The position numbers and the translations under genes are program-made. This document shows, in pieces, positions 2,058-43,897 of a stretch of DNA of 64,000 bases. The stretch is from Macrocystis pyrifera (Eukaryota; Sar; Phaeophyceae; Laminariales; Laminariaceae): the NCBI GenBank assembly GCA_031763025.1, contig JASSKH010000017.1, positions 10,282,626-10,346,625 of the forward strand, given 5' to 3'. Below the pieces are notes generated by a model. The model worked only from the letters and a program-made list of their open reading frames with translations. It had not been told where the DNA came from and did no database searches. Each line of letters begins with the position of its first letter. The stretch's first letter is position 1.

Positions 2058-3210
2058 CTATGCGCGCTCCTGCATAAACGCGTCCAGGTCAAAACCCCAC
2101 GTCACGTCGAGGTCGTTCAAGTGAGCCAGACCGTCGTCCAGCTCAACCACCACCCCCCCACCACCTCGATACGACGTGCTCACGTCGTCTGCCTCTGACC
2201 CCCCCTTTTTCGTAGACAGAGAGTCATTCGCCTGGGCAGGTACAGGTGGTGCAGGCGACACGCGTTGCCAGGTGACATTGCGCGTTATTAGCACAGTGCG
2301 GTTCTTTGTCAGCACTCGTACAGAAGCTCCTGGGTAGTTTGTTGCAGGGCCGAGGTAAAAGCACTCTTGCGCTTTCGCCTGTGACTTGTTTTCCCTCTTC
2401 ACCTTGCAATAGTCAGGCTTTAGGAAGGGCAGTAGTACTACCGGGGGGGGGGGGCTACCATGCCACATCTCATGCGGCGACTTGCTCTGCGGGTTAGCTG
2501 TTGTTGCTGTGCGGTTCAAGGCGTCACACGCCCAGTGGGACGCTTCCGCCCACAACGACGTCGTGGCCGGGAGTTTCGCGCCAGGAAAAAGCTCTTGAGC
2601 CTGGATTCGGCCCGCCATTGCGGCCGTCTCTATCAAACCTAGCGCGCGCTCTGCTACTCCATTGAATTGGGGACTGTCGGCCGTCGTGAATTCCTGCTTG
2701 ATCCCTCGTGATCTACACAGGTCGCCCAACTTTCCCCCGCAGAATTCACCACCCCCCATCAGATCGGACGATTACCACCGTAGAAGGGACACCGTCTGCA
2801 CGAGAATCCGCAAGGAACAGCTCGAACATTTCCGCGGCGTCCTACTTGTGGCGCATAAAGTACACCCACGTATATCGTGAAAAATCGTCGGGCACGATGA
2901 GAGTATACCGCTTCCGCCCGAGAGACTCTACCACCTTTGGTCAACTCAAATCACACAAAACCCCTCCCGAGCTTCTTATCTCCTCGTGTGTGTGTGGACT
3001 GCTTGATACCTTTGCGGAGACCCTTTGCCATGGAGCACTCTTTGCACTCCAGCAGCTTTCCCTCGAGGACAATCCCTTGCTGCTCCGCGGTCTTGCGAAG
3101 TAGTACCTCGTGGGAGTGTCCAGCAGCGCAGTGGAAATCGTTGATGTTGATTGCAAACTTGTTGGGCAGTTGTCCGGGGCGAGTACAGCACAGGCATTTT
3201 CCCCACAACT
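2058..3210 (-). pseudogene. copia integrase region (fossil)
   Basis: The lower-coordinate part reads FTTADSPQFNGVAERAL, the integrase core stretch around the catalytic glutamate of copia elements, followed by an ECFYLGP-type carboxy-terminal motif. The higher-coordinate part carries the HHCC-like zinc-binding segment ending in a C-x2-C (LLECKECSMAKG). This places it between the protease and the reverse transcriptase. Part of a broken element. Confidence 0.88.
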
Positions 3211-3437
3211 GCGGTCGATCCGGTAGCCGTATAGGCTGTAGAGAGTCCCACTCAACGGGAACACGATCGAACGCTTCGACTTGAGCCTGATTACAACCCC
3301 CGTGGGGCGCCCTTCGAAAGTATAGCCGTTTTTGACCAGAGTGGGCAGGGAAAATAAGTGGTAGCGGAGATCCGGCACGTGCGCAACGTTCGTATGCAGC
3401 ACTTGCACGGGACCGTTTCCGGACCGAAAGACAACAC

Positions 3438-3905
3438 TCACGTCACCGTAACCTTCGATCGCTCGGTGGATCCGTCAGCGATTCGGAGAGTCAAGTTGCA
3501 TTCTCTATAATTGATCATGCAGTCAGCGGAGGGCGTCATGTGAGTAGACGCACCACTATCACATATCCAAGCCTCGTCTCCTACCTGCCAAGCAGACTCC
3601 CCTTCACCCGAACCATCGCTCCACTTGCCTCTCTCTTCGACCTTGAAAGCTGAGGCCTGGACCGTACCTTTTTCCGGGTCGTTGTCCCTTGCCCCATCCT
3701 TACTCGTCACCGCCATGACAGCTTCTTCTTTCGATGAGGGGCAGACATCAGCAGCGTGCTCCAGCCCGTTGCATCGACTGCATCGATCCGTGGACATGGG
3801 ACAGGCATCGGCAGAGTGCCCGCGTCCCCGGCATCGGCTGCATAGCTTCGCCGTACACTCGCTCCTCCAATGGCCCTTCTTGCCACACCTATGACACTTG
3901 CCCAC
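3438..3905 (-). pseudogene. copia zinc knuckle and protease start (fossil)
   Basis: The frame begins with CHRCGKKGHWRSEC, a CCHC zinc knuckle, followed by two more knuckle-like Cys/His clusters (CSRCRGRGHSADAC and CSRCNGLEHAADVC). It then reaches WICDSGASTHMT, the aspartic protease active-site motif of copia polyproteins. Three tandem knuckles are more than the single one most copia elements carry. Part of a broken element. Confidence 0.9.
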
Positions 3906-5170
3906 TAGAGTACTTCCGCTGGCGGCTTTGGCGTCGTTACCATTGCCACCAGCAGCCGCGGCCGAGCCACCACCGTCCTCGTTGGAGCCTCTACCGCCTC
4001 GTCCGTGACCCCGTCGTCCACTTTTTCTTTGCCATTTCCTCCACCTTTCCGGCGACCACCGCCACCGTCGCCGCCGCCGGCGTGCATAGCATGGCCTGCG
4101 TGGCCAGCGTTGGACCCCTTCTTCCTGTTTCCAGAAAGTCGGTGATGCCGTTCTCGAACAGCCTTGATGATGTCATCACGGACATTGCTGTCACGTGATG
4201 CCAGGTTCCGAGCCTCCACTTCGTATTCGGTAGGCAGAGCGTCAATAAAGATGGTGTACAGCATGTGGTCGTCTACTGACATTCCTGCTGTTCGCATTTC
4301 CGCGGCAAGATCCTCGATCCTGCCCATCTCCTCGAGCGGGTTGCTCCCCGGCGCCATCGTAAAACTGTTAAGGCGTCGGGAGAGGTCTGATTTGGCCCCC
4401 GTCGTCTGAGGGCCGCACCACGCAAGGAGAGCGTCCCACGCTTGCCTCGGCGAGGTACCCCGGTGCAAAATGCTTTTATCGCTCTTGCTCTTGAGGCCCG
4501 TCGACAGGAAATTCCATGCCAGTGTATGTCTGTGCACACTTTCGCGGCTTAACCCCCTAGCGACAAGCATCGAGTTTTCGGTGTCTAATTCCCCTACGGG
4601 AATGTACTGTGGTGGATCCGACACGAAAGCAGACAAGAAACCAACTCCTTTGGCGTAATACCGAGCGTCTCTTGTCCAGGGGTTGAACTCAGATTATAGC
4701 CCACTAAACGATGGCACAGGAGTGTGTTTGAAGGCCAAATGGCGCGATAGAGGCAGATCAAATCCACCACCCAACTCACCGCCGGGGTATGCACTCCATC
4801 CTCCTGTCCTCCCGTGCTGGTCTGGCTCACCCCTCGGTGGGCCAACCTCGACAGGCAACGCAGTTCCTCCGCGTCCAGTTGCTCCCAAATCTGGCGAGGC
4901 GCCCTCACGCAAATTTGTCTCTTCTTCTGCTGCAATCTCTCTTACAGCAGTGGGTACTGCCCCTTGTGGGCTCTCCCCTACAGCAGCGCTACTCACAGCG
5001 CTGCCGGACTCCGATCGGCCGTTGTTCCTCATGAACTCGGCCATCATGTCCCTCATGGCGTTCAGCATCGACGCCTCTCTGTTCTCCATCGCCAGTTCGA
5101 CCTCGCGTCGCAGCGTTTCAACGTCAATTGGAGAGTAGCGCTCTTCTTGAGCCGATCCCTTCGAGGGCAT
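3905..5170 (-). pseudogene. copia gag region (fossil)
   Basis: The first ATG after the primer-binding site is at 5170, only a few bases from it. The amino part is charged and helical (a stretch of LRREVELAMENREASML type). The following part has the pattern of the copia gag UBN2 domain: W-x5-L-x-W, then L-x2-E-x-M-x2-I-x-D-L, then LP-x-EYE. A Gly/His/Lys-rich tail precedes the zinc knuckles. Part of a broken element. Confidence 0.85.
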
Positions 5171-10879: not shown

Positions 10880-10918
10880 TATATTGTTCCCTGACATATA
10901 TTGTCAGGGAACAATATA
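10880..10918. repeat. perfect 17-bp-arm hairpin at the outer edge of the giant inverted repeat
   Basis: ATATTGTTCCCTGACA at 10881-10896 is exactly reversed and complemented at 10902-10917 across a 5-base spacer, and one further base pair extends it. It sits where the left arm starts and contains an altered form of the terminal motif seen on the right arm. Confidence 0.75.
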
Positions 10919-13306
10919 CAATAATAGTCCAATAGTCTATTAATAGCTTCCTATTGCAATTGACTGTCTATTGTGGTCCCTAATTCCAGTTAATTGAAAG
11001 GCGTCGAGCTCTATTATCCAGACAATTTCTATTAAGTGACCCCTATACCTGACCCTATTGTCCAGACAAATTCCCTTTTTTGTAGGTAGTCTCCGTAATC
11101 AATGGTCCGGACAATTCCAATTAATGGACCTTCTCCTAAATAAATTGTCCGGCCAATTCCAATTGACAGACTGTCTCCTGAATCAATTGTCTCGACAATT
11201 CCAATTGATAGTCGGCCCCCCGAAATAGTTGTCCGGACAATTTCAATTAGTACACTGACGTCAAAAGTATTTGTCCCGACAACTCCAATTAATAGAGTCT
11301 CCCAGATCAATTGGCCCGATAATTCCTATTTATACACAGTCTCCAAAATCAGTTGTCCGGACAATCTCAATTAGCAGACTGCTTTCTAAATCAATTGTCC
11401 GGGCAATTCCAATTAATAGACAATATACAAAATCAATTATCCCGACAATTTCGACTAATACGAAATCTCCAAAACTACTTCAGACAATGCCATCATTGGT
11501 GGGCAGTCTCCTAAATTAACTGCCCGTACATTTCAAAACAACAGTGCATACGGATTACTTTGTTTCGTGAAAAGTTTTTTTAATGATTTACATCTGAGCA
11601 CATGGACTAAACGGTATCAAAACTTCCTACTTGCGGACATAAATTACAAAACTAACGTTGAGGTGTCCCGCCCTTTTCTGCTTATGCCTTGGACAATAGA
11701 CCTATCAATAGACTATTTCCCCTACAGCAGAGTCACGAAGTTGTCTATTAATTGGAACTGTCCGGACAAGTGATGTCATAGACTGTCTAGCAATTGAAAT
11801 TGTTCAGACAATTGATCTTGGATACTGTCTAACAATTGGATTTATTCGTACAATTGATATCGGGGACTGTTTAACAATTGGAATTGTCCGGACGAATAAT
11901 TTTGGAGACTCTCTATCAATTGAAGTTGCCCTGACAATTGATTTCAGAGACTGTCCATTAATTGGAATTATCTGAACAATTGATGTTTGATGCTTTTCAA
12001 TAATTGGAATTGTCCAGACAAATGAGCTCGGAGACTGCCTATCAATTGAAATTGTGCTGGCAAATGATTTCACAGGCTGTCTATCGATTGGAATTGCTTG
12101 AACGATTGATTTCGGGTGATTTACATGAATTGGACTTGTCGGGGCAACTGCTTTGAGATACCGTCTATTGATTGGAATTGTCCGGACAATGGGATTCGGA
12201 AGCGATCTACTAATTGGAATTGTCATGACTATCGAGTTTAAGAGGGCTCTGTGTTACAGCAGGGTACAGCTCTCAGACCGTAAAAAGGACCTGCGCTCGT
12301 TAGATCTAACCAAAGCTTGCCCTCTGCCTATCGAATAGACCCGACGCGTGACCCTGTGCAGTGGTCTCGCGCCGTATTATCCTCCCCATAGCGCTGGTCA
12401 CGACAGTCACAGCGCTATGAACCTCCCTCCCTGGCGCCACCCGCTGTAACACTCTGTTATTTGAAAGCTGGCAGCTACTTGTAGAACTACATTTGATTTG
12501 GTCAGTACACAACAGTACCACCATGCTAGTATTGCCTCTACAACAGGATCGGGAACTTCCCTCAATACGCAATCATTTGCAAGGTCCTTTATCGTGCCAT
12601 ATTACAAGTATAGTACCAATTCAATGGGGAGTGTCTGTCATAATACGATTAACTACTGTAGGTACACGGCCATGACATTTATCGAGCAAGTGATTTCTTG
12701 CGCGGCATCTGAAGTGAATTGTGCGGACAGTTCCAACTACTTTCCAGTCGACGAAGTCCGTTTGGACAATTCCATTTATTTGACAGCACCCGAAATCAAT
12801 TGTGCGGACAATTTCAGTTAATAAGCAGCAGCCGAAATCAAAAGTTCAGACAAATCCAATTAATAGACAGCTCCCGAAATCAATTGTCTGAAAAATTTCA
12901 GTCCGTGGGCAACACCCGAAATCAGTTGTCTGGACAATTCCAATTATTGGATAGCACCCGAAATCAATTTGCTGAACAATTCCCATTAAGTGGCAGTCTC
13001 CGCAATCATTGTTTGGACAATTACAATTCATAGACAACACTCGAAACCTATTGCTCACACAATTCCAACTAGTAGATGGTATTCGAAATAAATTGCCTGG
13101 ACAATTCCAATTCATAGACACTTGCCGAAAACAATTGCCTGGCCAATTTCAATTAATGGGCAATCGCCGAAATCAATTGTATTGACAATTTCCATTAATA
13201 GACAGTCACCAAAAACAATTGTCAAGACAAATCCAATTAACACACAATTCTTCTGAATCAATTGTAGACACAATAGACTATTGAAATAGTAATTGTCCAT
13301 GGTGTG
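10908..13306. repeat. left arm: ~42-bp minisatellite with palindromic core
   Basis: The unit reads roughly CAATTGTCCGGACAATTCC followed by AATTAATAGACAGTCTCCGAAAT. Dozens of diverged units are present. The arm ends at 13292-13306 with ATTGTCCATGGTGTG, close to the right arm's terminal sequence. A short LTR copy at 12252-12451 interrupts it and is absent from the right arm. Confidence 0.85.
12252..12451 (-). mobile_element. solo LTR of the element-C family, incomplete
   Basis: Its ends TGTTACAGC and GCTGTAACA, and much of its sequence, match the reverse complement of the 564-bp LTRs at 32875 and 43334, but it is only 200 bp long and so incomplete. CTCTG flanks both ends (12247-12251 and 12452-12456) as a 5-bp target duplication. 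The right arm has the uninterrupted site at the mirrored position near 15525, so insertion followed arm duplication. Confidence 0.88.
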
Positions 13307-13794
13307 CAAATATATATCGATAGACAGTGTTGCCAGTCTATTGTGGTTCACAATGCCTATCGTTAGCCAGCGTTGCCAGTCTGTTGTCGTTAACAATATC
13401 CATTGACGCACGCTTTTTCGGGGCTACTGTAACGGCCATGTTCTATTTCCTCTGTATTGTCCAGGGTATATTCACATCTTACCTCATCTATCTTATCCGT
13501 ACAGAGTGTATCCGATTAGGAATCACAGTTAATAACACAGAGTACCAACCACAACAACACAGCCGACAATGCAACACACTTAACCCCCATGATGCCCGTT
13601 GCCTTGTTGAGACACACAACGTTGCAGCCCTCCTTTACGCTATGCCATGCACCGACATTGCTGCTCATCACGATACACCATGCACTCATTCCATACTGGT
13701 GGTGATCGTAAGATGAAAATATGACATTGCTGCGGCACAAAATATTGCGTTGCTTAATAAATCAGAGTGCTTTGTAGGTGTGGAAATAGGCGGG

Positions 13795-14245
13795 TGATGG
13801 TGTCCATCGATAGACATTTTGTCCAGTACAATCGATTCTCAACGGTGTCCATCGATAGCAATTGCTGGCTACAATAGATTAGAATTGTATCTATCGATAG
13901 CCATTGCTGGTCACAATAGATTCAGAAACATATCTATCGATAGACATTGCAGGTAGCAATAGATTAATAACAATAGTTAAGAAATGCATCTATCGATATC
14001 CATTGCCGGCCACAAAAAATCAAGAAATATGTACATCGATAGCCACCGTGGACCGCAGTAGATTCTGCAAGCTATCCGTCCATACGTAGCCATTGTTGGT
14101 GACAATAGCTTTCAACCCAGGTACTTCAGCACACACTCCTGCCTGAACAATATGTTGGGGGCGTAACCTATCAATAGACGTTATTACCGACGACAATGGA
14201 TCGAGGAACGTGCCAATCGATAGACTTTGCCGACGACAAAAGACC
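13795..14245. repeat. ~58-bp minisatellite with CTATCGATAG cores
   Basis: Each unit contains a palindromic ATCGATAG core followed by a CATTGCTGG-CACAATAGATT-like stretch. About seven diverged units are recognisable. The palindromic core parallels the design of the flanking arms, but the sequence is unrelated. Confidence 0.75.
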
Positions 14246-14329
14246 CGTCTGTTGCACCAAACTATATTTCTACGTATTGCAGGGGCCATTCATTGTCCCT
14301 TGTCCAGGGTGTGTTATCATCATCGTGTT

Positions 14330-14698
14330 ATCCCTTAGGAGGTCGGTGAGTTTTGCTGATTGTTGTGATGGGATGGATGGACCATGATGAAAAGTGAACA
14401 AAGTTTTGCTGATTACTGCTGTGTTGATATGATGTGGGGGAGAATGTACCATGATATGAAGTGAACGAAGTTCGTTGACTATTGTGATGGGATGGATGGA
14501 CCAAGATGAAAAGTGAACGAAGTTTTGCTGATTAATGTGATGCTATGGATGGACCACGATACAAAGTGAACGACGTTTTGCTGACTATTGTGTGATGGGA
14601 CCATGATGATACAAAATGAACGAAGTTCGTCTGCCTTTGTGATGGGATGGATGGACCATGATAAAAAGTGAAGAAGTTTTGCTGATTATCAGTAATAT
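14330..14698. repeat. ~60-bp minisatellite, left part
   Basis: Units contain GGGATGGATGGACCATGAT followed by AAAGTGAACGAAGTTTTGCTGA. About six units lie here. The array resumes at 16875 on the far side of the right arm. Confidence 0.8.
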
Positions 14699-14704
14699 AA
14701 AAAT

Positions 14705-16868
14705 CACACCCTGGACAATTATTATTTCAATAGTCTATTATTATGTCTACAATTGATTCAGGAGGATGTGTGTTAATTGGATTTGTCTTGAAAATTGTTT
14801 TTGGTGACTGTCTATTAATTGAAATTGTCAATACAATTGATTTCGGCGATTGCCCATTCATTGAAATTGGCTAGGCAACTGTTTTCGGCGATTGCCTATG
14901 AATTGGAATTGTCCAGGCAATTGATTTCGAATACCATCTACTAACTAGTTGGAATTATGTGAGCTTCGAGTGTTGTCTATGAATTCGAATGGTCCAAAAA
15001 ATTGGTTGTGGAGACTGCCAATTAATTGGAAATATTCAGCAAATTGATTTCGGGTGCTATCTAATAATTGGAATTGTCCGGACAATTGATTTCGGGTGTT
15101 GTCCACCAACTGAAATTGTTCAGACAATTGATTTCGGGAGCTGTCTATTAATAGGATTTGTCTGAACATTTGATTTCGGCTGCTGCTTATTAACTGAAAT
15201 TGTCCGCACATTTGATGTCGGGTGCTGTCAATTGAATGGAATTGTCCAAACGGATATGTCCGCACAATTCACTTCAGATGCCGCGCAAGAAATCGATTGC
15301 TCGATAAATGTCATGGCCGTAGTTATTGTATTATGATAGACACTCGCCATTGAATTGGTACTAATCGTAATATGGCATAATAAAGGATCTTGCAGATGAT
15401 TGCGTATTGAGGGAAGTTCCCGATCCTGTTGTAGAGGCAATACTAGCATGGTGGTGCTGCCGTTGTGTACTGACCAAATCAAATGTAGTTCTACAAGTAG
15501 CTGCCAGCTTTCAAATAACAGAGCCCTCTTAAACTCGATAGTCATGACAATTCCAATTAGTAGATCGCTTCCGAATCCCATTGTCCGGACAATTCCAATT
15601 AATAGACAGTATCTCAAAGCAGTTGCCCCGACAAGTCCAATTCATGTAAATCACCCGAAATCAATCGTTCAAGCAATTCCAATCGATAGACAGCCTGTGA
15701 AATCATTTGCCAGCACAATTTCAATTGATAGGCAGTCTCCGAGCTCATTTGTCTGGACAATTCCAATTATTGAAAAGCACCAAACATCAATTGTTCAGAC
15801 AATTCCAATTAATGGACAGTCTCTGAAATCAATTGTCAGGGCAACTTCAATTGATAGAGAGTCTCCAAAATTATTCGTCCGGACAATTCCAATTGTTAAA
15901 CAGTCCCCGATATCAATTGTACGAATAAATCCAAATGTTGGACAGTATCCAAGATCAATTGTCTAAACAATTTCAATTGCTAGACAGTCTATGACATCAC
16001 TTGCCCGGACAATTCCAATTAATAGACAACTTCGTGACTCTGCTGTAGGGGAAATAGTCTATTGATAGGTCTATTGTCCAAGGCATAAGCAGAGAAGGGC
16101 GGGACACCTCAACGTTAGTTTTGGATTTTGTCTCCGCAGGTAGAAAGCTTTGATACCGCTTGGCCCATGTGCTCAAGTTGTAAATCATTAAAAGAACTTT
16201 TCACGAAACAAAGTAATCCGTATGCACTGCTGTTGTTTTGAATTGTACGGGCAGTTAATTTAGGAGACTGCCCACCAATGATGGCATTGTCTGAAGTAGT
16301 TTTGGAGATTTCGTATTAGTCGAAATTGCCGGGATAATTGATTTTGTATACTGTCTATTAATTGGAATTGCCCGGACAATTGATTTAGAAAGCAGTCTGC
16401 TAATTGAAATCGTCCGGACAATAGACTTTGGAGACTGTATGAATTGGAATTGTCGGGCCAACTGATCTGGGAGACTGCTGTCTATTAATTGGAGTTGTCG
16501 GGACAAATACTTTTGGCGTCAATGTACTAATTGAAATTGTCCGGACAACTATTTCGGGGGGCCGACTATCAATTGGAATTGTCGAGACAATTGATTCAGG
16601 AGACAGTCTGTCAATTGGAATTGGCCGGACAATTTATTTAGGAGAAGGACCATTAATTGGAATTGTCCGGGCCATTGATTACGGAGACTACCTATAAAGT
16701 GAAATTGTCTGGACAATAGGGTCACGTAGGGGTCACTTAATAGAAATTGTCTGTATAATAGAGCTCGACGCCTTTCAATTAACTGGAATTAGGGACCACA
16801 ATAGACAGTCAATTGCAATAGGAAGCTATTAATAGACTATTGGACTGTTGTCTATTGTCCAGGGTGTG
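14705..16868. repeat. right arm: 2.16-kb minisatellite block with 15-bp terminal inverted repeats
   Basis: It begins CACACCCTGGACAAT and ends ATTGTCCAGGGTGTG, perfect 15-bp inverted ends. Inside is the ~42-bp repeat. The perfect 16-bp palindrome AATTGTCCGGACAATT occurs at 15072-15087. The block lies inside the ~60-bp minisatellite (14330-14698 and 16875-17060), as expected of an insertion. Confidence 0.82.
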
Positions 16869-16874
16869 GATTCA

Positions 16875-17060
16875 TCTTATTGTGATGATATGGATGGACC
16901 ACGATACAAAGTGAACGATGTTTGCCGAATATTGTGATGAGATGTATGGACCATGATAAAATTGGTAGGTATGTTTAATGACTATTGTGATGAGATGGAT
17001 GGACCATGATACAAAAGGACCAATGATTTCCTGACTATTGTGATGGGATGGTGTGAAAAC
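16875..17060. repeat. ~60-bp minisatellite, right part
   Basis: Three further GATGGATGGACCATGAT-type units in the same orientation as those at 14330-14698. Confidence 0.78.
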
Positions 17061-17799: not shown

Positions 17800-18135
17800 G
17801 ACGGGACGGGACATATTTGGGTCGTTTGGCGGGAAAAAAAATGAAAGCGGGACGGTAAAATGAGGGCATAAAAAGTTGGCGGGAGGGGACAGCGGGTGCC
17901 AAATTTCTCGACGGGACGGGACGGTAAAAGTCAACGGGGCTGATTTTCATGATGGGACGGGACGGTAAATATTTGTGTCCTCGGCGGGACGGGACGGTAA
18001 ATAGTTTTTCCTCGGCGGGACGGGACGGTAAATATTTTTTCCTCGGCGGCACGGGACAGTAAATATTTTTTCCCACGGCGAGACGGCACGGTAATTTTCT
18101 TTTTCTTCGGCGGGGCAGGACGGTAAATATATTTT
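17800..18135. repeat. GGCGGGACGGGACGGTAAATATTT minisatellite
   Basis: About nine units of roughly 35 bp with a GGGACGGGACGGTAAA core. On the minus strand this opens long frames rich in a PSRP motif. The same pattern in several frames shows these are products of the repetition and not a protein gene. Confidence 0.8.
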
Positions 18136-18865
18136 TCTTCTTTCCCGCCGCAAGGTCGGCGCAGTTGTACGTGAAAAAATTCTCGCACACTGTTGGTTCC
18201 GCGAAGGGAGCCGTCCCGATGCGGACGTTTTCTTCTCGACCCGCGCGCAGCCCAAGCCCCGAGAAGTGCTGCCACTACACGGGCGACGTCTTCTGATTTC
18301 TTCCACCCCTGCCCCAAGCGCTGTTGTTGCGTTGCCAGCTCATGGTGGCTGTTCTGATGGTTGTGCTTGCGCTGTGTTACTAGTGGTTGTGCAGGTGGAG
18401 GGGTGGTGGCGGCGGCGGTGGTGATTCTAGTGCCGCTGCTGGTCGATCGACCCCGCCCATGAGATAGGCATCCATGGCGTCCGTGCCGGTCACACCAAAT
18501 ATGTTAGGAGACAGCACTTTCACCCCTTGACATACAGCAACTTGGCATTGACATTGATACGCTTTGACTGACACCAAACTACTAGGTTTCAATGTGCACT
18601 CGGCCCTACATCCTTGACAGCGCAAAACGTTGCGTCCCGCTTGATGGCATGTCTCCTGAAATCTTTTTGGGCCACACCAGTAGTGAAATCATTTTGGGCC
18701 ACACCAGTAGTACTGGTGTGATCGTGGTCTGTGTGCTCTTTGTGGTGGCGAGCCTGTGGCAGGTGTTGTGTTATGATACTCTGCTTTCAGTTGCGAGTAG
18801 AAATAAAGTATGAAGATATGAATAATAGTAAAAAACATCACCAACAGGTATACATTTACTACTTG

Positions 18866-19444: not shown

Positions 19445-19765
19445 GGTGCCACGACGGGACGGAACGATAATTTTCTACGGGAGAGATTTTATCGGCGGGA
19501 CGGGACGGTATTTTTCCGTTGGTACGGCGGGACGGGACGTTAATTTGTCGGTGTCACGGCAGGACGGGACGGTAATTTTTCGGTGCCATGGCGGGACGGG
19601 ACGGTAATTTCCAACGGGAGAGATTTTATAGGCGGGACGAGACGGTAAGTGACGACGGTCAGGGATTTTGTCGGCGGGACGGGACGGCGGGACCATTTTC
19701 ACGGCGGTTTTACCGTCCCGTCCCGTCCCGTCCCGTCCCGTCCCGCCGTTACCACCGTTACCGCC
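19445..19765. repeat. second GGGACGGGACGG minisatellite, palindromic right end
   Basis: About eight GGCGGGACGGGACGGTAA-type units on the plus strand, followed at 19710-19760 by the same motif reversed (ACCGTCCCGTCCCGTCCCG). The turn-round produces a strong fold-back just inside the right end of the hAT-like element. Confidence 0.78.
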
Positions 19766-27823: not shown

Positions 27824-29758
27824 TTGCCAACACGACCGCTTAAACAGTCGCTCGGAGATGAACCATCCATGGACGAGATGACGGAAGCACTTACGGGTAC
27901 GCCAAAAAGGAAAGCTGTCGGGCCAGATGGTCTCCCGGCCGAACTCCTGAAAATTGACCACCTCGCATTCGCCCAGTGCTTTCACAACATCCTTGTCAAT
28001 GTTTGGATAACAGGAGAAGTCCTCCAGCAATGGAAATTTGCGATCATCAAGGTCCTTCACAAAGAGAAGGACCGAACTGGTTGCAACAACTTCAGAGGGC
28101 TTTCGCTTGTTGCCCACGCTGGCAAAGTTTGTTGAAAATCGTCCCGTCCCGCCTCAGTAGCTACTGCGAGACCGAGGAATTACTCCCGGAGGAACAGCAG
28201 CGCGGCTTCCGCCCCGCACGATCAACGATTGATATGTTGTTCGTCGTGCACTGGTTGCAAGAGCTTGGACGACAGAGGAAAACCCCCTTGTACTTGTGCT
28301 TCATCGATCTGCACAAAGCGCACGACTCTGTCGACCGAGAGCTGTTATAGGAGGTACTCACACGCTTTGGCGTACCAACCAAGATGCTGAGAATTATCCG
28401 TAATTTCCACGATGGCATGCGGGCTCGCGTGCGTACGGATGACGGCGAGCACTCGCAATGTTTCGATGTCACGCAGGGGCTGCGGCAAGGCTGTGTGCTA
28501 TCACCGTTACTGCTGTTCAACGTATTCTTCGCTGCTGCGTTACACGTCGTACTATTAATAGTACGCTTCAGCCAAGACGAAGCCATCGTAAGGAATTTGG
28601 TCCAAATCAGTGATGCTGGAGTAGGTCGAACGGAGGAGCAGGAGCCGTTGGCGTGCGTGCGAAGGGCTGTATGGGGCATGTTGTACGTCGATGACGCAGG
28701 AATTGTCTCGAAGTCGGCTCAAGGGCTCGCGAAAATGATGACAGTCATCGTGACTGTCTTCAAAGCAGCAGGTCTCACGGTGTCGGAAAAGAAGACAGAG
28801 ACTATGCTTTTAGAGACACCAGACCAGGAAACCCTCGCACCATCGCTCGTCATCGAAGCAGCAGGCCAGAGGTATAAGCAGACGGCCCAGCTCTCATACT
28901 TAGGCGGCGTTATCCACGAAACGCTGACCTCTCGCTCGAAATCGACCGACGGATCCGTCTCATGCGAGCATGCTCCAAACGGTTCGGCCCGGAGCTGTAT
29001 GATAGGACGACCGCCCCCCTTAGCCTGAACGTCCGAATACTGAAGGCCGAGGTGATTGAGACCCTGCTGTACGGGTGTGTGACGTGAACCCTCAGAGCGG
29101 AACACTTGCCAAGCTTCGAACGCCTCACCACGAAGTCCTGTTGCGAGTCATTGGCTTCCAGTGCCGACTTCGTACTGACCATGCCACCCTCTCGTACGCG
29201 AAGGCCCTCAACATCACGCGTTGCGAGAGCATCGAAACGACCATTCGCAAACGGCGGCTCTTCTTTGCGGGGGGGGTGGCACGGCAAAACAAGGAGCGAT
29301 CACCCAGTCGGGTAATGTTCGGGACGATGGCTAGTGAAGAGAACCCGAGACCTAGCGGACAGTTTAAGACTTGGCATAGATGCATAGTCGAAGACCTTAG
29401 GGAGTTCCAAGCCACCGAAGGGTCAACGGAACTTGCCCTCTTGGTGTTTGGAGTTGAGACCGCGCTGTGGTCCACTGCTGCAAAAAAGGCAGGGAAGTGG
29501 TACCGGGGGATCCTCGAAGCAGCTAAACGGTTCATGGTGAGGTGGCACGAGGTTGAGGCTGAGCTAAGCAGGCAGCGCCGCGCATCCGCCGTGGGTGGTG
29601 TCCAAGGGAATGGGGGGAGGGGGGGCAACAGGAGGAGTGGAAGAAAACCCGACCAAAGGAATGCGGAGAGGGGGGGGGACAGGAGTAGAAGGGAAACTGC
29701 AGTGGACGAAAGTAGGAAGGAGATGGCAGAGAGGGTAGCAAGGTACCGGGTAGACTAG
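27824..29758 (+). pseudogene. LINE reverse transcriptase, inactive
   Basis: Reverse transcriptase blocks appear in order: [13 protein letters not shown] (27910), a CNNFRGLSL block (28084), [12 protein letters not shown] (28204), [10 protein letters not shown] with the first catalytic Asp (28301), [10 protein letters not shown] (28479) and YVDDAGIVS with the catalytic Asp pair (28684). A conserved carboxy region with IRKRRLFFAGGVAR follows (29250). A TAG interrupts the frame at 28348-28350, and frame changes occur near 28130, 28920 and 29095, with a TGA near 29083. The amino terminus with the endonuclease is absent. The clade is not assigned. Confidence 0.9.
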
Positions 29759-32874: not shown

Positions 32875-33438
32875 TGTTACAGCGGGTGGCGCCAGGGAGG
32901 GAGGTTCACAGCGCTGTGACTGTCGTGACCAGCGCTATGGGGAGGATAATACGGCGCGAGACCACTGCCTTGATCAGGGTCACGCGTCGGGTCTATTCGA
33001 TAGGCAGAGGGCAAGCTTTGGTTAGCATCCTCTGGGCGGATCTTATAGGGGAAGGGAGGATCCCCGGTGTGGGAACGCCTTCGGTCTCGGGTACAGAGCC
33101 AGCAACGAGGTTCCGGGACCACCCGGTGTTTACAAAACACCACCAAGAGTGAAGAAAGAAAGTCAAAGCCAAGTGATCTGTGATACCTGTCCTATCGACC
33201 CCCAGCCCCTAGGGCCCTGCCGTGCCCGTCGTGCCCGTCATCGTGTCTGTGGTGCTTCGTTGAGTGTTCACGCTGACTGCTCGCATCTATCGCATTGCAT
33301 CGATCCACGTTCTGCATGACCCGATCATTACTGCTTGAAGGCACTTCCTCGAACTCCCAAACAACAGGTGAGCCGGCCTCAGAGATCTAACGAACGCAGG
33401 TCCTTTTTACGGTCTGAGAGCTGTACCCTGCTGTAACA
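32875..33438 (+). mobile_element. 5' LTR of element C
   Basis: 564 bp. The same family left the short solo LTR at 12252-12451. Confidence 0.88.
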
Positions 33439-35450
33439 TGATGAACTCAGGCTGATCGAAGTGCATTGCAGGAGATCGGAGTGTTCGCAAAACGTTTGCA
33501 AGAGATCGGAGCGTTTGCAAACGTGTGAAATAATGTCATCGTGTTCTTTGTATAATCCCACGTTTGATCTTGCATAATACTTTATTTGCATACCAGTTAC
33601 TTGGTATATGCATACATCCACATGTTTTCGTTGTTGCCTGCCTTGTATGATGGTGATACGTGCAATATGCTGTTATGTATTCACGCTGCCAATGGTGCTC
33701 TGCTTGTTTGTTTCGTGAGGCTTTCAAGATACTTATCTGGTCAATGCATGCAGGCATACTCGTTGGTCGTGCTCCGTTTGCCTGTTGCTCGTGCTCGTCT
33801 GTTCGCTCGTTGTTCAAGATCGCACACACATGCATGTTCGTTAATAAACGACTGCATGCCATTGACCACATATTGTCTTCAAAACCGAATGCAATCGACA
33901 GCAATCGATACAAGCCAAAGGTGCCGTACGTACTAAAGCACGCATGCTCTCGTGTACCGTTTGCCTGGTTAGGTGATACCGGAAACTAACAACGTTGAGC
34001 CTTACGCCGTTTGGGCGTACGTTACCCTATAGAACCATGAACCTCTGGACAACACCGTGCACTGTCGGCTGGCAGACACAGAACTTTCAAGAAAACAATA
34101 TATATTTTGGTATTCTTGCCGCGATGCTTGTAGACTACATCAGTAGTAATAGACCAATCGTCGTATTATGCACACCAAATGGAAAGTCCGATGCACGTTT
34201 GACCCTCTTCGATGTCTCCGGTCGTACCATTTTCTGTGTTGTATACCAACCGAGCGTTGCGCTCGAGTATCAGGTACAACACCTAGAGGACTGAAAGTCA
34301 AGTACAAGAGGAAATGACAAAAAAAAACTGGAGCAGATGAAGATCGGCTACGCAAGCCCTCGGGGGGGCACGGGTCACACGGGGTGACATAGTTTCAGCT
34401 GGACGATGATGAGCTTGCACACAACGGAGGAAGGTGTGGCTTGCTGTGTCCAGAGGGCTCGGGCTAGATATATAGATGCAGCCCAACCTGAGTAGTACCA
34501 GGCCAACAGGTATGGAGCGGGTGAAACACAACCGTGGTGATCCTTCTCTTTTTCTGATGTCGTATCCACAGTCGAAAATGCTATATTATTCTTGCTGCAC
34601 GTTTTTCCTCGAGCGCAACAAAAAAAAAATCGGGGGGGGTAGGCTGCTGTCCGCCCTGATTGACTTAGACTTCAAGTCACGCACCAAAGCTAGAAAACTC
34701 GCGCAGCGCATGCCGTAATATGCGGGACCACCGATGTAAGACCAGGGACATGGACCCAATGAGATACCGGTAGCAAGCATGACATAGCGCATACCAGTGA
34801 CGAGCTGCCCGGTGTGTTCGGAAAGGCATGGAATCCGAGTAGTAAATTGATTGATGTGCTGTATTCCTTTAGATTACCATGGAAAGTATTGCTGTGGGCT
34901 GTCAACATATGTACGACTCAATTAGTCAGCCCAACCTGATCAACCGTCATTATTTTCGTGGTCACATATCACATGTACTGGTGTTGTTAAAAGAATGTCT
35001 CCCTGCTGGTATCGAAAAAGCAGTAGTAGGGGGTACTTTTGAATATGATGGCGGGATGAGCGCCTCCCATAGATGGTTCTAAGTGTGGAGCTGGACGTAG
35101 TTACTGATGAGCCTACCACGCCACGAAACCTTGCCTACCGCCGCCCGGAGCAAAGGCGCCTCAACTCGGAATTAAACAGAAGAGCCGTATCTACGCCTCT
35201 ACAATGCTATCAGTAGTCTAAACACTACGCGCGATGCTCAAAAAGATTAAAAGAATATTGCTGACGACCTGCACTGCCGTACACTATTGGTATTAATATC
35301 AGTCTAAGTGCATTTAATTTGGAAGAAAATACAGGAACCATACTGACTGCTTCTGTACGCTGTACCTGCAGTTTTTGTTTATTTATTTTCCGAACAAGGT
35401 TGATTTATCGATATACGGGGTTGGTGAATACTAAACCACAAGCGTACAGG
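33439..35450 (+). other. element C interior, left part, no supported gene
   Basis: No primer-binding site starting TGG is obvious next to the LTR. The text following it begins TGATGAACTC. Short direct repeats of GAGATCGGAG(T/C)GTT occur at 33473 and 33503. The open frames are short and lack domains. Confidence 0.5.
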
Positions 35451-35765
35451 GGGGGTGGCTCGCAGTATGCTTTCTACACATACGTACATAAAGGACTTAT
35501 ACAATATACCCATAATACTAAAACTGTACGGCAAGATTCCGAAGGACCCTTTGGCTCGCAGGTGGCTCGCAGCACGCTTTTTACACATGCGTACATAGAG
35601 GACGTATACCATATGTCCATAATACTGAAACTGCTGCACGGTAAGATCCCGAGGAACCGTTTGGCTCGCAGTATGCTTTTTGCACAAACAAACGTACATA
35701 GAAGACGTATACAATATATCCATGATACTAAAATTGTATGGCAAGATCCCGAGGGACCCTTGAGC
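35451..35765. repeat. ~105-bp tandem repeat, three units (in C)
   Basis: Units start with TGGCTCGCAGTATGCTTT-like text at about 35455, 35566 and 35662, and each contains ACGTACATA-AGGACGTATAC and GGCAAGATCCCGAGG versions. Successive units are diverged. Confidence 0.75.
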
Positions 35766-35873
35766 CTATCTCTCTTCCTATCTTGATGAGTTATCATGTT
35801 GATTCGTTGAAACAGCACCTACACAGCAGTATCTGCTGGATGCACTACACAACACCCGTATGTACATATGTAG

Positions 35874-35955
35874 GGTGAAGAATCAGCACGGACACTATTG
35901 CTGGATGTCGACGAGTAGAAGAACCGGTTTAATGTGAAGAACATACACATACACC
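35874..35955. repeat. dispersed repeat, copy 2
   Basis: Partner of the repeat at 30489-30575. Confidence 0.65.
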
Positions 35956-36079
35956 ATCATATTCATACGGGGCATACTTGAAGCTGGATGAACAGAGTGA
36001 AGCCGGGCAGAAGACGTGGGTAGAAAAGACGTTGGTCTAAAAACTCAAAAGACAATAACCTGGAGGATGCATATAAATA

Positions 36080-36365
36080 TATGGGTAATACTATTGGTCG
36101 TACGGCAAGTCTCCCTCGATCCTTGGGCCTTACGATAGTTGTCTCTTACTACTGCAGCAAAGCGTCAACACCACTGCCTCTCGGCATAAAGTACTGTTGT
36201 GAAGCCGTTCTATATGGTATTCATACTACTATAAAGAAATTAACTGTTCATGATACTATATATAGGTCGTACGGCAAGATTTTGGGCCCTAAAACAGTGT
36301 CCCATACTGCCGCAGCAAAGTATCAACACTGCTGCCTCCCGGCATGAAGTACTGCAGTGAAACGG
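36080..36365. repeat. ~165-bp tandem duplication (in C)
   Basis: GGTCGTACGGCAAG at about 36096 and 36265 opens two units that both run through GCAGCAAAG, a TCAACAC-TGCTGCCTC stretch, CGGCAT and AAGTACTG. The opening words resemble the ends of the 35.5-kb repeat. Confidence 0.65.
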
Positions 36366-36487
36366 GTCAGCTGTCCAGTACAGCAATCAGGTTTTTATTC
36401 GGGTGAAAGCACCGCATGAAAGCTAAGTTGAAACTGAGAACTATACAACGACTCATATGTTCACAACATAGCTGGTGTTGTGGTCTT

Positions 36488-36610
36488 CTCGTACCCGGTA
36501 CGTTGGCATTTCACTTGTTCTACCCGTTACGGTATTCTCGTACCCGGTACATTGTCATTTCACTTGCTTTACCCGGTATTCACCGGTACGCTGGCAGTTC
36601 CCTTGCTTTC
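36488..36610. repeat. ~55-bp tandem repeat with TACCCGGTAC
   Basis: CTCGTACCCGGTACGTTGGC and later versions at about 36537 and 36580 are each followed by ATTTCACTTG or a close variant. Confidence 0.6.
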
Positions 36611-39109
36611 TTGCTTTACTCATTGCTTTGTCTCCAAATAATAATAAATCAGAACAGACACAGGGTTGGACAGATGTATTTGGGTATATAGAACACACAT
36701 AAGGGAAGTACGTACCCCTACGACTCATATCCGTGGGGTCTCCATACATTCTACGTCCAGTAGTATTTTATAAATTTTGAAATACGTCAGCTGTGAGTTC
36801 GACTGATTAAATAGTTGATACTCAACTTTGCAAGCCAGTAGTATTATAAAAAGGTTTTTACATCCGTACGATCGCATATTATTCATGCTGACTGCAAAGT
36901 ATGTTGCCTTCATTCATATGCTATAATATACAGCAGTATCTTCAGCATACCGAGCGGTATCACACAGCCTCAGTTTACTCTTGGCAGATACCCCCGTATA
37001 ATTCTGTCCACTACGGCGAGGATGTGAGCAATGAGATAATTACTGCTGTGCATGAGCTTCGTAAGATACTATTAATGTTGTACTTCTCCGTCCATGGCCA
37101 AAAATTCGATTGAAGCATTATTATCTGCTGTAGATTACGTTACTAATGTCCGCACAGAAACACGAAGATTATACCATGGTAATTATTAGGGTTCGACCTT
37201 CTATATACGTATACATACCCGATCTGGGTCGTGCCCTGAAAGAGTTTCGTTGGTTTTGATGTGGTTGACCTATTATTTTCATCTAAAGGCCCGCGTGGTC
37301 TAGAGTATCGCTTCTGTTTTTAGCGTTGAACCATGGAGCTCGAATCTCAAGATGGATGAGGCGGGGATTCACACAATATATACAACAAAAAGGTGTGGAA
37401 TCAACTGCTGAGATCGCCTAACGAGTGTAGGCGCAACGAAGAACTGAAGTATTTCCGCAATAAAACCCAAGGCACAGACCACATCGGTGAGAGGAATAAA
37501 GAGCTTGCTGTGTGACACCGGATGTCTAAACGTAGGAGGGATAGAGAAAAAAGGGCGAAGATAACAAATGGGATGGAAATCAATGATATATCTGTATCGT
37601 ACATACATAACTACGTACGAAAAAAAATATAAGGTACCTGGTGTGAAAAATCAGCAAACGCGTACGAAGAAACACTGCATGGTCGGAAGGCGTAGAGGGG
37701 TTTCAAGATCGGTTTGGATTGAAGAATACACTGCCTGTGGTTAGGTCCACACCTTGCGTAAGTATCATCTGAAGATTGGGTTGTCCGAGAACGAATCTGG
37801 CCAGCAGGTAAACGCTTTAAACTCCGAGAGTGTGGGGTGGTCAAATACATACTACCAGGTATTGTAGTACGCATGTTCTGACACTATAACAATAGATCGA
37901 AGTCCTGAAATCCCGCCCGTGGTCACTAAACAGGCTGTAAAAACTAAAATGCGTCGCGACTGGAGAAAACTAACAAGTACGAAACAGTGCCGAACCGGTA
38001 GGTGAGAGAAACGGTATTAACGACCTGTCCGATACGGTATGTACATCCCGCATCAATTGCAAATGAATAACACCATGAACGTGTACATGCTATTACATGT
38101 ACACCCAGCATAGAGCATAAGAGCGGGCAAGAACTTTGGACATCGTGCCGAAAGGACCCCGGATCGTCGGCTCCTATCATGAGTGCTTTGCCTGCAGGAA
38201 TTGCGACTGCTCTCCCAGAACTGATGCATGCATCCCAAGCGGTGGATTCGAGATGCACTATTCCAAACCAAACTGAGCAGAGAAAACCTGGCCTTCTCCG
38301 ATGGTAAAAACCATTCCCAGGACACGTATACTCATTGACCGCCTTACTCACTAGCGCGGTGAACAGACAGTCAATCGATTTTCGCGTTGTTTTAAGTATC
38401 TGACACGGTTCCCAATGTCGACTGGGCATCTTAGTCTTCTGAGTACTGCACTACTGTTGCTGTACATGTACCGAAGTTTGACCCTAATTCCAAGTGTTTC
38501 GTCCGCGCAATGGAAGGGCAGTTCTAAAGGTCACATGCCCAATGCCCAAACGAGGTTCCCTGAATGCCAAAAACAAAACGCTAACGGCGCCCGAGTTTGC
38601 GAACGCGAACGTGTAGGTGTTGAGCGTACGACGCATCCCTGTTTTATTTGTCCGTATCTGAGTAGCGGATGATCCGCCTGATGAGACAGGAATGCTTGAA
38701 GAGACACTAAATTGCATGGCACCTAATACCGAGAAACATGTTGGGATCATACTGCTGCTCTCCACGTGACTATCTCTGATGGCAACGATGGCACAATAAC
38801 AGTAGTGACAGCGTGCAACCTAACAGGATACTATTTGTCGCTCCAAGCATAGTGGTCGAGGGTTGAAGGAACGAATCGACAGGTGTGATTGGAATGCGAG
38901 TAGGTGGTAGGCAGTTTCTGTTCTGGGGGGGTGTTTATCTCCACCTTGCTGCAACTACTTCCACAAAAAGCGTTATACGAGGGGTACGATTTGGAAGTAG
39001 GTCTGGACGAATGCCGTTTTAAGGCGCGTGATTGATTTTAGCACGAACATGTTGCACGAGTGGACAGTGTCCGTGCTGGGGGGGGGGTGGCGTAAACGTC
39101 AATACCTTC
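36611..39109 (+). other. element C interior, middle part, no supported gene
   Basis: The open frames are short and inconsistent. A segment at 36775-36850 repeats text from 19155-19235 (GTGAGTTCGACTGATTAA and beyond). A degenerate tRNA-like segment lies at 37281-37365. Confidence 0.45.
37281..37365 (+). other. degenerate tRNA-like sequence
   Basis: CCCGCGTGGTCTAGAG resembles an acceptor strand followed by an A box. GAGCTCGAATCTC resembles a T arm, and GAGGCGGGG downstream can pair with the 5' CCCGC. The cloverleaf is incomplete, so it is called a relic or SINE head and not a tRNA gene. Confidence 0.35.
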
Positions 39110-39386
39110 TATTGATTGTGCTCAGAAACACGACGGAGACGTTACATCTAATATTAGGGAGTTCCATATATTGACATAGGATTATAGGAGAGGGATATTT
39201 AGTCGGATATTCGGGGGGATAAACGGGAGGTTTATTCCCGCGTCATGTTGAATAATAATCTGCATACGATGCATGAGCTGTCACTCGACAGCTCGGATAT
39301 AATATAGGAGGAGTTCCGTGTCATGTCTGGAGTCAGCCACGCGTTCCCGCGCCAGCTGCGCCTATACCTTTAGAGATCAATCAACA
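39110..39386 (+). mobile_element. 5' LTR of element B
   Basis: Begins TATTGATTG and ends ATCAATCAACA. A GATATAATATA box lies near 39296. Its ends match the element A LTRs while the centre is a different subfamily. Confidence 0.9.
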
Positions 39387-41594
39387 CACTAGTGTGTGTC
39401 CGGCGATCTTCTATTGGCAAGCGTAGCCAAGGCCAACCTAGAGAGGTGGGAACCTGCTTCGGCATGCCTAGTTTCGAGGACATGCCCAGTCAAGAAGCCA
39501 GCGTGGAGAGTGAAAAGACCATAGAGGAGATGAAGAAGAAAATAGAGGTCCTGGAGGAAAGGACGTGTGTGTGAGAAGAGTGAGGAGATGCCGCACCAGG
39601 AGAGCAGCAGCGATCCCAGCGGGGCCAAGTTTGAGCCGGACCTGGTAGAATCGCTCGGCACTGGTGGCGAAGGCGCTGGAGAGTAGTAGTTGCAGGGACA
39701 GCAGCAGCTCCAGCAGCACCGTCAGCAACGTCGGCAGTCAGAGGATTGCTGCACTTTTGTTGCGACGATGAAGCGCATGCAGTAACCACCGTTGTTACCG
39801 CCGCCGTCGTGTCGACCGCCGCGTAACCGTCGCTGCTGCAACACCCCGGGATAGCGAGGCATCTGCCTGAACCTGTGGGTTCGCTGCGCGCTGGCGACAT
39901 AAATGTAGAACGTATATTATTATATGAAAGAGAGAGTTTGGCCGGCGGGAGCCGGGAGGGAAGGTGGAGACCGCGGGAACGACGCTGAAAGCGTTCTGGC
40001 AGAATCCGCCTGGACTGCTGAAGCACCACGCCCGCAGGTGGTTGATGGGGGGGACGTTGCCCCCGAGGAAGGAGTCGAGGGAGAGAGCGAAGATGGGCGC
40101 AGGGGAAAGAGTCTGCATCATCATCTGTTCGGGATGCTGTGCCCCAAGAGAAAGGAGGAAAGAAGGGATCGAGGCGCCACCGGCAAGGACTTGCGTCCGC
40201 ACCAGGCACGTTTGGCTTTGTTAATTGACTGCTGTGGTGATTTTCGTTTTTAAATTGGTTGTGTATCGATTTGAGAGTAGGAGAGAATCTGCGAACATTG
40301 GAAATTCAGATTTATTTGGGAACACTGGAAATGAAATGAGATGAACACGTATACGTATAGCTTCTGAGGTTTTTCTGTAGACGCGCTGCTGTACTGCTGT
40401 AGGACTATGACGTCTGTCTGTTTTATGGTTGACTGGCCGAGGGCTCTGGTTGAGCATCGACACGAGTGCAGCAGGAAGAGGTGTATGTGATGAACCCTTG
40501 TGCGCAACTACACCAAAACGTCTGTTTGCGGCATTTCACATATTTACATCTTTGTATGCGGGTTATCTCGTTTTTGAGTTGTTGGGTTGGTGTGTAGCAC
40601 GACCCGCGCCACTTGTTACGTGCTAAAGGCAAGATATTTATTTGCGGACGGAGTAATATACTATTCCAGTACAGCAGCAGCAGAAGTAGTATGGTACTAC
40701 TGCTGTGAGCTGAGACAAAAACGGTTTACTTGGCACTGCTGTATATGTTCATCAAGTATGTACTGCAGCATATATACGAAGTGGTCGAGGAATACATGGG
40801 TTTGATGTGGGACCATATATTCTCGTTGACAAGTAGCTGTTTATTTGCAGTAGTCTTTGAGAACTTAACTATACCAAAGAGGAGTTTGCAAGCAGTGCAT
40901 GTGCAGACCTAATCGCTCGAATGCACGTCCCATCCCTTCTGTATGCCGGGTCAATGCTGCGGAGGCGACGTTAGATTTCACCCAGGAGGAATAGCTGGAT
41001 GACCTGAGCTGCGATGACGCCATGAGACCGAACGGAGAGGCAGCCGCGGCGGAGGCAACAGCAGTAGTGTTCGGGGCATCGGGGTGATTCTTACTGAAAT
41101 GTGGTTGCCTTTGAATCTGGATGAATATTTTCATTGCTTGTATTTTGGAGTTGTTTTTCTGGTCGATTTGGAGTCCGCGAGTGTTATTGGAGTTTTCGAG
41201 TAGTTTCAATATCAAATAAAATTCAAGTGAAGGAATGTATGCTATCTCGCATTACCGTCGCGATCTGTGTATCTATGGCGGGAGTAGGGGACAAAGGGGA
41301 GACCCTTGTCCGGGGGAACGGGGTTCCTTGCGATCTCTGGCATTTATTTTCTTGGCTTAATTTTTATTTTTGATGAGTAGGACTACTGTGATATTTTATA
41401 TGATTTGCATTAATTCTTCATGAAATAGAGGGAGATTTTTTTGATAAGGTTGAAGAGAGACTATGAAGCGCCTGGGGGCGTGTGCGGTCCATAGGAAATG
41501 TTTTCTGATTTGGAAGGTTTGGGTAGCATTTCGGAAATTGAGAGTTTGATTTTTTTTGGTTCTTGAAAAATTGTGCTTTTGTTCAAAGTCAGTA

Positions 41595-41668
41595 CTGACT
41601 GAGTGGTCTAGCAGGTAGTGCTTTATAATTCCCTAGGGTGGGTCGGGAGTTGAAGTCTCGCCGAATTC
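41595..41668 (+). other. tRNA-like segment with Pol III-type boxes (element B)
   Basis: Counterpart of 32083-32157. A-box-like TGGTCTAGCAGG is followed by a B-box-like region around GGAGTTGAAGTCTC. The second box is weaker than in A. Confidence 0.5.
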
Positions 41669-41960
41669 GTAAGTTGATATTTTCGAGCGTGCGCGCTGGA
41701 GACAATACGAATGATTATGATAGTGTGCCCGTAGACACCAGTAGCGTTTGGCGAGGGGAGGGCCCCGGAGATCACTGTACTAAGTCGACGAGATTCCACT
41801 GAATATCTTCGGACCAATTCCGCGGAAAATGCCGTTTTACCTGACTGAATCCGAAAAGAACGCCGTTTTACCTGGCATTGGATTTCGAGAGTTTTATTTG
41901 TTCGCAACAGAGAAGCTGGGAGGATATTAAAGTATGGTCGTGTATAATGAGCAGGGGGGA

Positions 41961-42237
41961 TATTGATTGTGCTCAGAAACACGACGGAGACGTTACATCT
42001 AATATTAGGGAGTTCCATATATTGACATAGGATTATAGGAGAGGGATATTTAGTCGGATATTCGGGGGGATAAACGGGAGGTTTATTCCCGCGTCATGTT
42101 GAATAATAATCTGCATACGATGCATGAGCTGTCACTCGACAGCTCGGATATAATATAGGAGGAGTTCCGTGTCATGTCTGGAGTCAGCCACGCGTTCCCG
42201 CGCCAGCTGCGCCTATACCTTTAGAGATCAATCAACA
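41961..42237 (+). mobile_element. 3' LTR of element B
   Basis: Identical by eye to 39110-39386. Confidence 0.9.
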
Positions 42238-42238
42238 C

Positions 42239-42475
42239 CTTCAAACACTTTTTTAAGTCGGAATCAAATATTTACCTTGGCTAGCGCTAGTAAGTCGATG
42301 TGGAGTACCTTGAAACGACCTAGGTCACTCTAATAAAGGTGGCGCAAACGCCAGTAGCTTCAAACACTTACTTAAGTCGGAATCAAACATTTACCTTGGC
42401 TAGTGCCAGCAAGTCGATGTGGCGTGAACGTCAGTACCTTGAAACGACCTAAGTCACTCGAATAATAATTTTGGC
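42239..42475. repeat. ~118-bp tandem repeat, two units, target of element B
   Basis: CTTCAAACACTT starts units at about 42239 and 42357. Both contain AAGTCGGAATCAAA, TTACCTTGGCTAG and TACCTTGAAACGACCTA. The end of a preceding unit (GGCGTAAACGTCAATACC) lies left of element B at 39089-39106. Confidence 0.78.
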
Positions 42476-42710
42476 CCGGAGTAGAAAGAACTCATGAACT
42501 TCCTACAGCCCGTTTCAGTGGAATCTGTGTCTGGCCAAAAGCTTAAACGTGTAGGTTATTGTCAAAGTGCAGACGTAGGCCTTCGAGAGGAACCCCCACC
42601 TCAGATGCAGGTAAGCCAGGAAGAAAACATGTTTTTTCACAGATGAGTACATGCTCCGAGCGTGTTAGACAGATGTGACGCAGGCAGTTGCAAGTGAAGA
42701 CTGTACGAGG

Positions 42711-43185
42711 GTCAGGTCCGCCGCTCTTCTCAGCACCATCCAAGGTCAGCACCGCGGGAACAAGAGGCGCTGCAACATCGGGCCGACGGCGATAGACGGG
42801 GGAGGAAGGCTGAAGAATATCTGGACGAAGGTCAGGACCGCCGTTATTCTTACCACCGTCCAAGGGCAACACCGCGGAAAGGAAGGGCGCTGCAACATCG
42901 GGCCGACGGCGATGGACGGAGGAGGAAAGCTGAAGAACATCTGGACTAAGGTCAGGACCGCCGTTCTTCTTACGACCGTCCAAGGGTAACACCGCGGAAA
43001 GGAAGGGCGCTGCAACATCGGGCCGACGGCGATGGATGGAAGAGGAATGCTGAAGAACGTCTGGACGAAGGTCAGGACCGCCGCTCTTCTTACCACCGTC
43101 TGAGGGCAGCACTAAGGGAAGGAAAGGAGCTGCAACATCGAGCCGACGGCGAGGAGCGGAGGTGGAAGGCGCAGGCGCTGCAGGG
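42711..43185. repeat. exact 120-bp tandem repeat, four units (in C)
   Basis: GGTCAGG(A/T)CCGCCG starts units at 42711, 42831, 42951 and 43071, exactly 120 bases apart. Because 120 is a multiple of three, several frames stay open. The longest is a minus frame 42543-43265 with a 40-residue repeat containing RRRPDVAAPFL and GGPDLRPD. Whether this is a real repeat protein or a by-product cannot be decided from sequence alone. It sits just inside the 3' end of element C. Confidence 0.82.
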
Positions 43186-43333
43186 GTCCATGATCGTAAT
43201 ACCCGCTGGGCACCGTCGCTCATACGCACCGGTCTGGGGGGGTGTCCGAGAAGGAAAGCGCACACGCTGTCGCCGGGCTAGCACCGGGGCGCCGGCTTTG
43301 TGCCGACAATGGTTATGTATTGGGCAGGGGGGG

Positions 43334-43897
43334 TGTTACAGCGGGTGGCGCCAGGGAGGGAGGTTCATAGCGCTGTGACTGTCGTGACCAGCGCTATGGG
43401 GAGGATAATACGGCGCGAGACCACTGCCATGATCAGGGTCACGCGTCGGGTCTATTCGATAGGCAGAGGGCAAGCTTTGGTTAGCATCCTCTGGGCGGAT
43501 CTTATAGGGGCAGGGAGGATCCCCGGTGTGGGAACGCCTTCGGTCTCGGGTACAGAGCCAGCAACGAGGTTCCGGGACCACCCGGTGTTTACAAAACACC
43601 ACCAAGAGTGAAGAAAGAAAGTCAAAGCCAAGTGATCTGTGATACCTGTCCTATCGACCCCCAGCCCCTAGGGCCCTGCCGTGCCCGTCGTGCCCGTCAT
43701 CGTGTCTGTGGTGCTTCGTTGAGTGTTCACGCTGACTGCTCGCATCTATCGCATTGCATCGATCCACGTTCTGCATGACCCGATCATTACTGCTTGAAGG
43801 CACTTCCTCGAACTCCCAAACAACAGGTGAGCCGGCCTCAGAGATCTAACGAACGCAGGTCCTTTTTACGGTCTGAGAGCTGTACCCTGCTGTAACA
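43334..43897 (+). mobile_element. 3' LTR of element C
   Basis: Same length as the 5' LTR and almost identical to it. Followed by CTGC and the remainder of element A's 3' LTR. Confidence 0.88.

Follow-up and report, generated by a model that had tools for sequence, protein, structure and literature searches.

Inverted 2.2-kb arms of 42-bp repeats in Macrocystis pyrifera, probably two opposite-facing copies of a non-autonomous transposon

The window, that is the whole 64-kb stretch of Macrocystis pyrifera DNA that was analysed, contains two long repeat-rich arms in inverted arrangement at 10918–13306 (minus strand) and 14705–16868 (plus strand), separated by a spacer of about 1.4 kb which contains 43-bp arrays. 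Remains of a copia-type retrotransposon with matches to gag (PF14223), a zinc knuckle and Pol_BBD lie at 2944–4690 (minus strand), and the adjoining open reading frame 2058–2768 gave no match. A reverse transcriptase fragment (RVT_1, E 2.1e-12) is found at 28351–29028 (plus strand), and two adjoining open reading frames at 51121–52703 (minus strand) match subtilase (PF00082). Arrays of the GGGACGGGACGG type with units of 32–63 bp occur at 17954–18137 and 19493–19687. Taken together, the copia gag, reverse transcriptase and subtilase matches mark the window as eukaryotic. A match to the N-terminal domain of vanadium chloroperoxidase at 39490–40305 (minus strand) scores 22.7 bits (E 9.8e-5), less than the curated threshold of 29.3 bits, and may be a chance product of low complexity. 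RNA families and tRNAs were not found.

The left arm was aligned to the reverse complement of the right arm, leaving out an insert at 12252–12451 and one copy of its CTCTG duplication. Both arms are collinear and 2036 of 2130 ungapped columns are identical (95.6%), confirming the preliminary description, which had seen near-identical reverse complements of about 2.2 kb. Of the 94 mismatches 56 are transitions and 38 are transversions; a further 88 columns are gaps, which stem from 19 openings. In BLAST the outer block of the arms is 95.5% identical over 1339 columns and the inner block 87.6% over 866 columns, gaps counted. On the inner side this homology ends at the terminal motif described below (13306/14705) and on the outer side 5 bp before it (10923/16849). 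The left-arm homology thus begins at about 10918–10923 and not at 10880, where the element had been proposed to start. Where the left copy has its degenerate outer end, the interval of about 10880–10918 forms a separate, near-perfect palindrome of some 39 bp, which to the eye resembles two terminal motifs placed head to head.

The divergence between the arms is unevenly distributed. Mismatches amount to 3.1% before position 12576 vs 7.2% after it, and the dispersion over 21 blocks of 100 columns is 2.85, a value reached in none of 5000 permutations. The longest identical run between the arms measures 171 (p = 0.031). Such patchiness would be compatible with partial later gene conversion or with a mosaic origin of the arms. 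Only 6 of the 94 differences are changes from CpG to TpG or CpA, and decay of CpG was rejected as the account of the arm differences. Nevertheless, as the observed/expected ratio of CpG is 0.82 and 0.80 in the arms vs 0.99 in the window and as CpG positions are among the weakest columns of the repeat unit, CpG decay may have added to the divergence between units.

Each copy carries three arrays of a 42-bp unit in alternating orientation with two spacers between them. According to Tandem Repeats Finder (66–76% matches in both arms) and the positions of the units, the arrays of the left copy lie approximately at 11012–11540 (minus strand), 11742–12246 (plus strand, opposite orientation) and 12717–13250 (minus strand), and their counterparts in the right copy at about 16241–16780, 15537–16030 and 14770–15260, respectively. 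The units to be compared were picked by hand: 35 in the right arm, where 15254 was removed from a list of 34 and 15030 and 16283 were included in addition, and 37 in the left arm, where 13260 was removed from a list of 37 and 11477 was included instead. The units within one arm are indeed very different from each other, as had been noticed before: their mean pairwise identity is 0.625 in the right arm, with a range of 0.24–0.83 that includes one out-of-register unit, and 0.616 in the left arm. For 33 of the 35 right-arm units, however, the best match is the collinear unit of the left arm; the two exceptions (units 16283 and 14988) sit at places where the unit spacing is broken. This collinearity of alignment and of best matches, despite the divergence of the units, supports the earlier proposal that the arms were copied as wholes after the 42-bp repeat had grown.

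The consensus of the unit contains a palindrome, AATTGTCCGGACAATT, in which the motif GGACAAT is present in both directions; the same motif is found at the termini of the element. Over 34 units, conservation is higher in the half-sites of the palindrome (0.859) than in the remainder of the unit (0.747), and the half-sites rank second of 42 circular offsets. The bases that would pair are not preserved jointly (193 of 272 cells vs a null mean of 193.1), and a conserved hairpin was rejected because the two bases of a pair do not covary. A half-site bound by a protein thus fits the conservation better than a hairpin does. When compared with the unit, the left 60-bp end was matched by none of 1000 shuffles, a result that is inflated as this stretch runs into the first unit; the similarity of the right 60-bp end is marginal (p = 0.033), and the spacer ends B and C show no significant resemblance (p = 0.078 and 0.41). 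The occurrence of GGACAAT in termini as well as in units is a hint, though no proof, that transposase may bind the units as additional sites. A coding role of the 42-bp (14-codon) repeat was also considered. At least three stops are present in 34 of the 36 frames of the six arrays and no frame is free of stops, which makes coding unlikely; it is not disproved, since one frame of the second array is interrupted only once in each copy. An open reading frame of 188 aa at 15400–15966 has no Pfam match.

Both ends of the right copy are intact. Its left terminal inverted repeat (TIR), CACACCCTGGACAAT, at 14705–14719 (plus strand) has its exact reverse complement at 16854–16868 (minus strand), so that the copy is bounded by exact 15-bp inverted termini, and its 60-bp ends align with a score of 27.5, whereas none of 2000 shuffles scored above 16.5. 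The left copy has a recognizable TIR at its inner end only (ATTGTCCATGGTGTG, 13292–13306, minus strand, one mismatch), its outer terminus being degenerate. Allowing up to two mismatches, the terminal motif occurs five times in the 64 kb, all within 13292–16868, whereas 0.17 occurrences are expected and none of 100 shuffles had five. Two of these five are TIR-like ends within the spacer, both on the minus strand: one at 13456–13470 with two mismatches, near a 43-bp array of the TATCGATA type, and one at 14299–14313 with one mismatch. Partner ends for the motifs at 13456 and 14299 were not seen, and since two of the five motifs are unpaired the motif by itself does not prove an element.

The right copy is flanked on both sides by the same tandem array of 53-bp units, at 14349–14689 (14444–14689 in Tandem Repeats Finder, extended to 14349) and at 16878–17051. 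The array matches through base 40 of its unit on the left and resumes at base 38 on the right, so that its phase continues across the element with an overlap of 3 bp (TAT); chance alone would bring the phases within 3 of 53 in about one of eight cases. The array is separated from the two TIRs by 15 and 9 bases, which do not match the array and, as judged by eye, do not resemble each other. These flanks support an insertion of the right copy alone into a pre-existing 53-bp array. Exact words shared by the flanks within 25 bp reach 4 bp for the right copy (74% in random sequence) and 6 bp for the left copy (8%), neither of which is a significant target duplication.

The insert in the left copy is a solo long terminal repeat (LTR) with internal deletions (12247–12456 including the duplication, minus strand). 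It comprises 200 bp (12252–12451), begins with TG and ends with CA, and is bordered by the 5-bp duplication CTCTG (12247–12251 and 12452–12456); the right copy is without the insert and shows the uninterrupted empty site. The stretch 12247–12451, whose exclusion from the arm comparison had been proposed at first, consists of the 200-bp insert plus the 5-bp duplication. Apart from the internal deletions the insert matches the LTR at 43334–43897 in 198 positions with two mismatches. The latter is one of two direct repeats of 564 bp (32875–33438 and 43334–43897) with 561 identical positions, the same orientation and TG...CA ends; the pair is bordered by CTGC at either outer side, and the second repeat is preceded by a G-rich tract. 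The interval 32875–43897 is probably a recent LTR retrotransposon of about 11 kb with these repeats as its LTRs, and five open reading frames of at least 150 aa inside it gave no polymerase match. A tandem repeat of 120 bp (3.9 copies, 42701–43170) is located shortly before the second LTR. The deleted solo LTR lies in the left copy only, and in our reading it entered after the arms had been copied. The copying was described as recent, which holds in a relative sense only: the arms differ by 4.4% vs 3 of 564 positions in the LTR pair of the same window.

With a probability of roughly two in three we suggest that the arms are two copies of one non-autonomous DNA transposon with TIRs, inserted in opposite orientation 1.4 kb apart. 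Each arm can be regarded as an element of its own because termini are found at the arms' own ends and because the 53-bp array is present on both sides of the right arm. The element would be a non-coding cut-and-paste transposon of about 2.2 kb, its body consisting of three diverged minisatellite arrays in alternating orientation with two spacers, and its transposase would be supplied in trans; among 18 open reading frames scanned in the window no transposase match was found. The two opposite copies may have arisen by local transposition or by a duplication linked to transposition. The right copy would have entered the 53-bp array, and the retrotransposon would later have left the deleted solo LTR in the left copy. 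A third copy was not seen in the 64-kb window.

The preliminary description had instead likened the locus to a foldback element. In foldback elements the arms and the loop form one unit with the termini at its outer ends. Read in this way, the whole of 10.9–16.87 kb, with 2.2-kb repetitive arms and a 1.4-kb loop, would have moved together. The architecture is present as described, in that a loop lies between long inverted arms that contain tandem repeats, the patchy divergence would be expected if the arms convert each other, and the outer limits 10918 and 16868 share a word of 6 bp (8% in random sequence). The inner ends of the arms, however, carry a terminus as well, the 53-bp array that borders the structure on the right is also present in the loop, and the outer left terminus is degenerate. 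If the outer limit is set at 10881, the best shared word shrinks to 4 bp (75% in random sequence). As the best word of the composite is no weaker than that of the left copy, the search for target duplications does not separate the two readings. Because the single-unit feature is missing, we do not class the structure as a foldback element despite its resemblance, and consider a composite that moved as one unit unlikely.

Somewhat less likely again is that template switching or repair duplicated one element locally and in inverted orientation within this repeat-rich tract, so that the second copy would have arisen without transposition. The short distance of 1.4 kb between the copies, the lack of convincing target duplications, the abundance of other tandem repeats in the region, and the short palindrome at the left outer end would all suit such an event. 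Breakpoints of repair, however, would not be expected to coincide with the terminal motif at the inner ends of the arms and to miss it by 5 bp at their outer ends. An inverted mis-join of a single element during assembly is conceivable in so repetitive a region, but 94 mismatches, 19 gap openings, their patchy distribution and an LTR insert that is confined to one arm are unlike a duplicated read and make this very improbable.

Returning to two separate transposon copies, one may go further and imagine that such long non-autonomous transposons form a family. Their body would consist of amplified transposase-binding sites, namely palindromes of 42 bp which are each composed of two terminal half-sites and ordered in arrays of alternating orientation; gene conversion would keep neighbouring inverted copies similar, and the members could move singly or as foldback pairs. 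We regard this extended proposal as doubtful. Exact-pattern scans for the element in collections of viral and genome contigs and for the LTR in viral contigs gave no matches, and neither did a distant blastn search in which a portion of the left arm was compared with phages; these searches say little about relatives since the collections consist mainly of viruses and prokaryotes. A literature search for four motif strings also gave no match.

Several known transposons resemble the element described here. Tetris from Drosophila virilis, as described in PMC4079207, is likewise non-autonomous, has tandem repeats in its inverted arms and is linked to satellite-like DNA. It consists of long TIRs around a middle domain, with repeats of about 220 bp and target duplications of 8–10 bp, whereas here each arm looks like an element that has its own ends, the units measure 42 bp and no convincing target duplication is seen. 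Tm1, a Mutator/Foldback family of root-knot nematodes, also has arrays of short tandem repeats at its ends and a short non-inverted sequence outside the inverted repeat; according to the same account its repeats of about 14 bp make up most of the TIR, its target duplications are 9 bp long and some members encode a putative transposase (PMC3169594). Galileo from Drosophila shares the tandem repeats in long termini, and exchange of sequence among its copies has been proposed (PMC3688188, PMC3573991). In its internal repeats further binding sites for the THAP domain of the transposase were identified (PMC3688188). Galileo has a known transposase of the P superfamily (PMC3688188, PMC3573991), whereas no transposase match accompanies the present element and binding to its units is a conjecture. 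MITEs that contain minisatellites or satellite monomers (reviewed in PMC9659126; a MITE of Porphyromonas in PMC4596501) are likewise inverted-repeat elements with tandem repeats inside, but the present element is much longer (2.2 kb) and has three alternating arrays.

The word foldback is absent from the main text of a survey of Ectocarpus (PMC12477816), in which repeat families were moved to the class of tandem repeats if these covered more than 60% of them; under such a rule an element of the present type could be missed, which would constitute a blind spot. The locus would add an example to a known sort of mobile DNA, tandem repeats that ride in TIR transposons, and would offer, on the reading preferred here, a clear case of two inverted elements that mimic a foldback element. 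If the units are binding sites, they would provide a natural series of diverged transposase sites.
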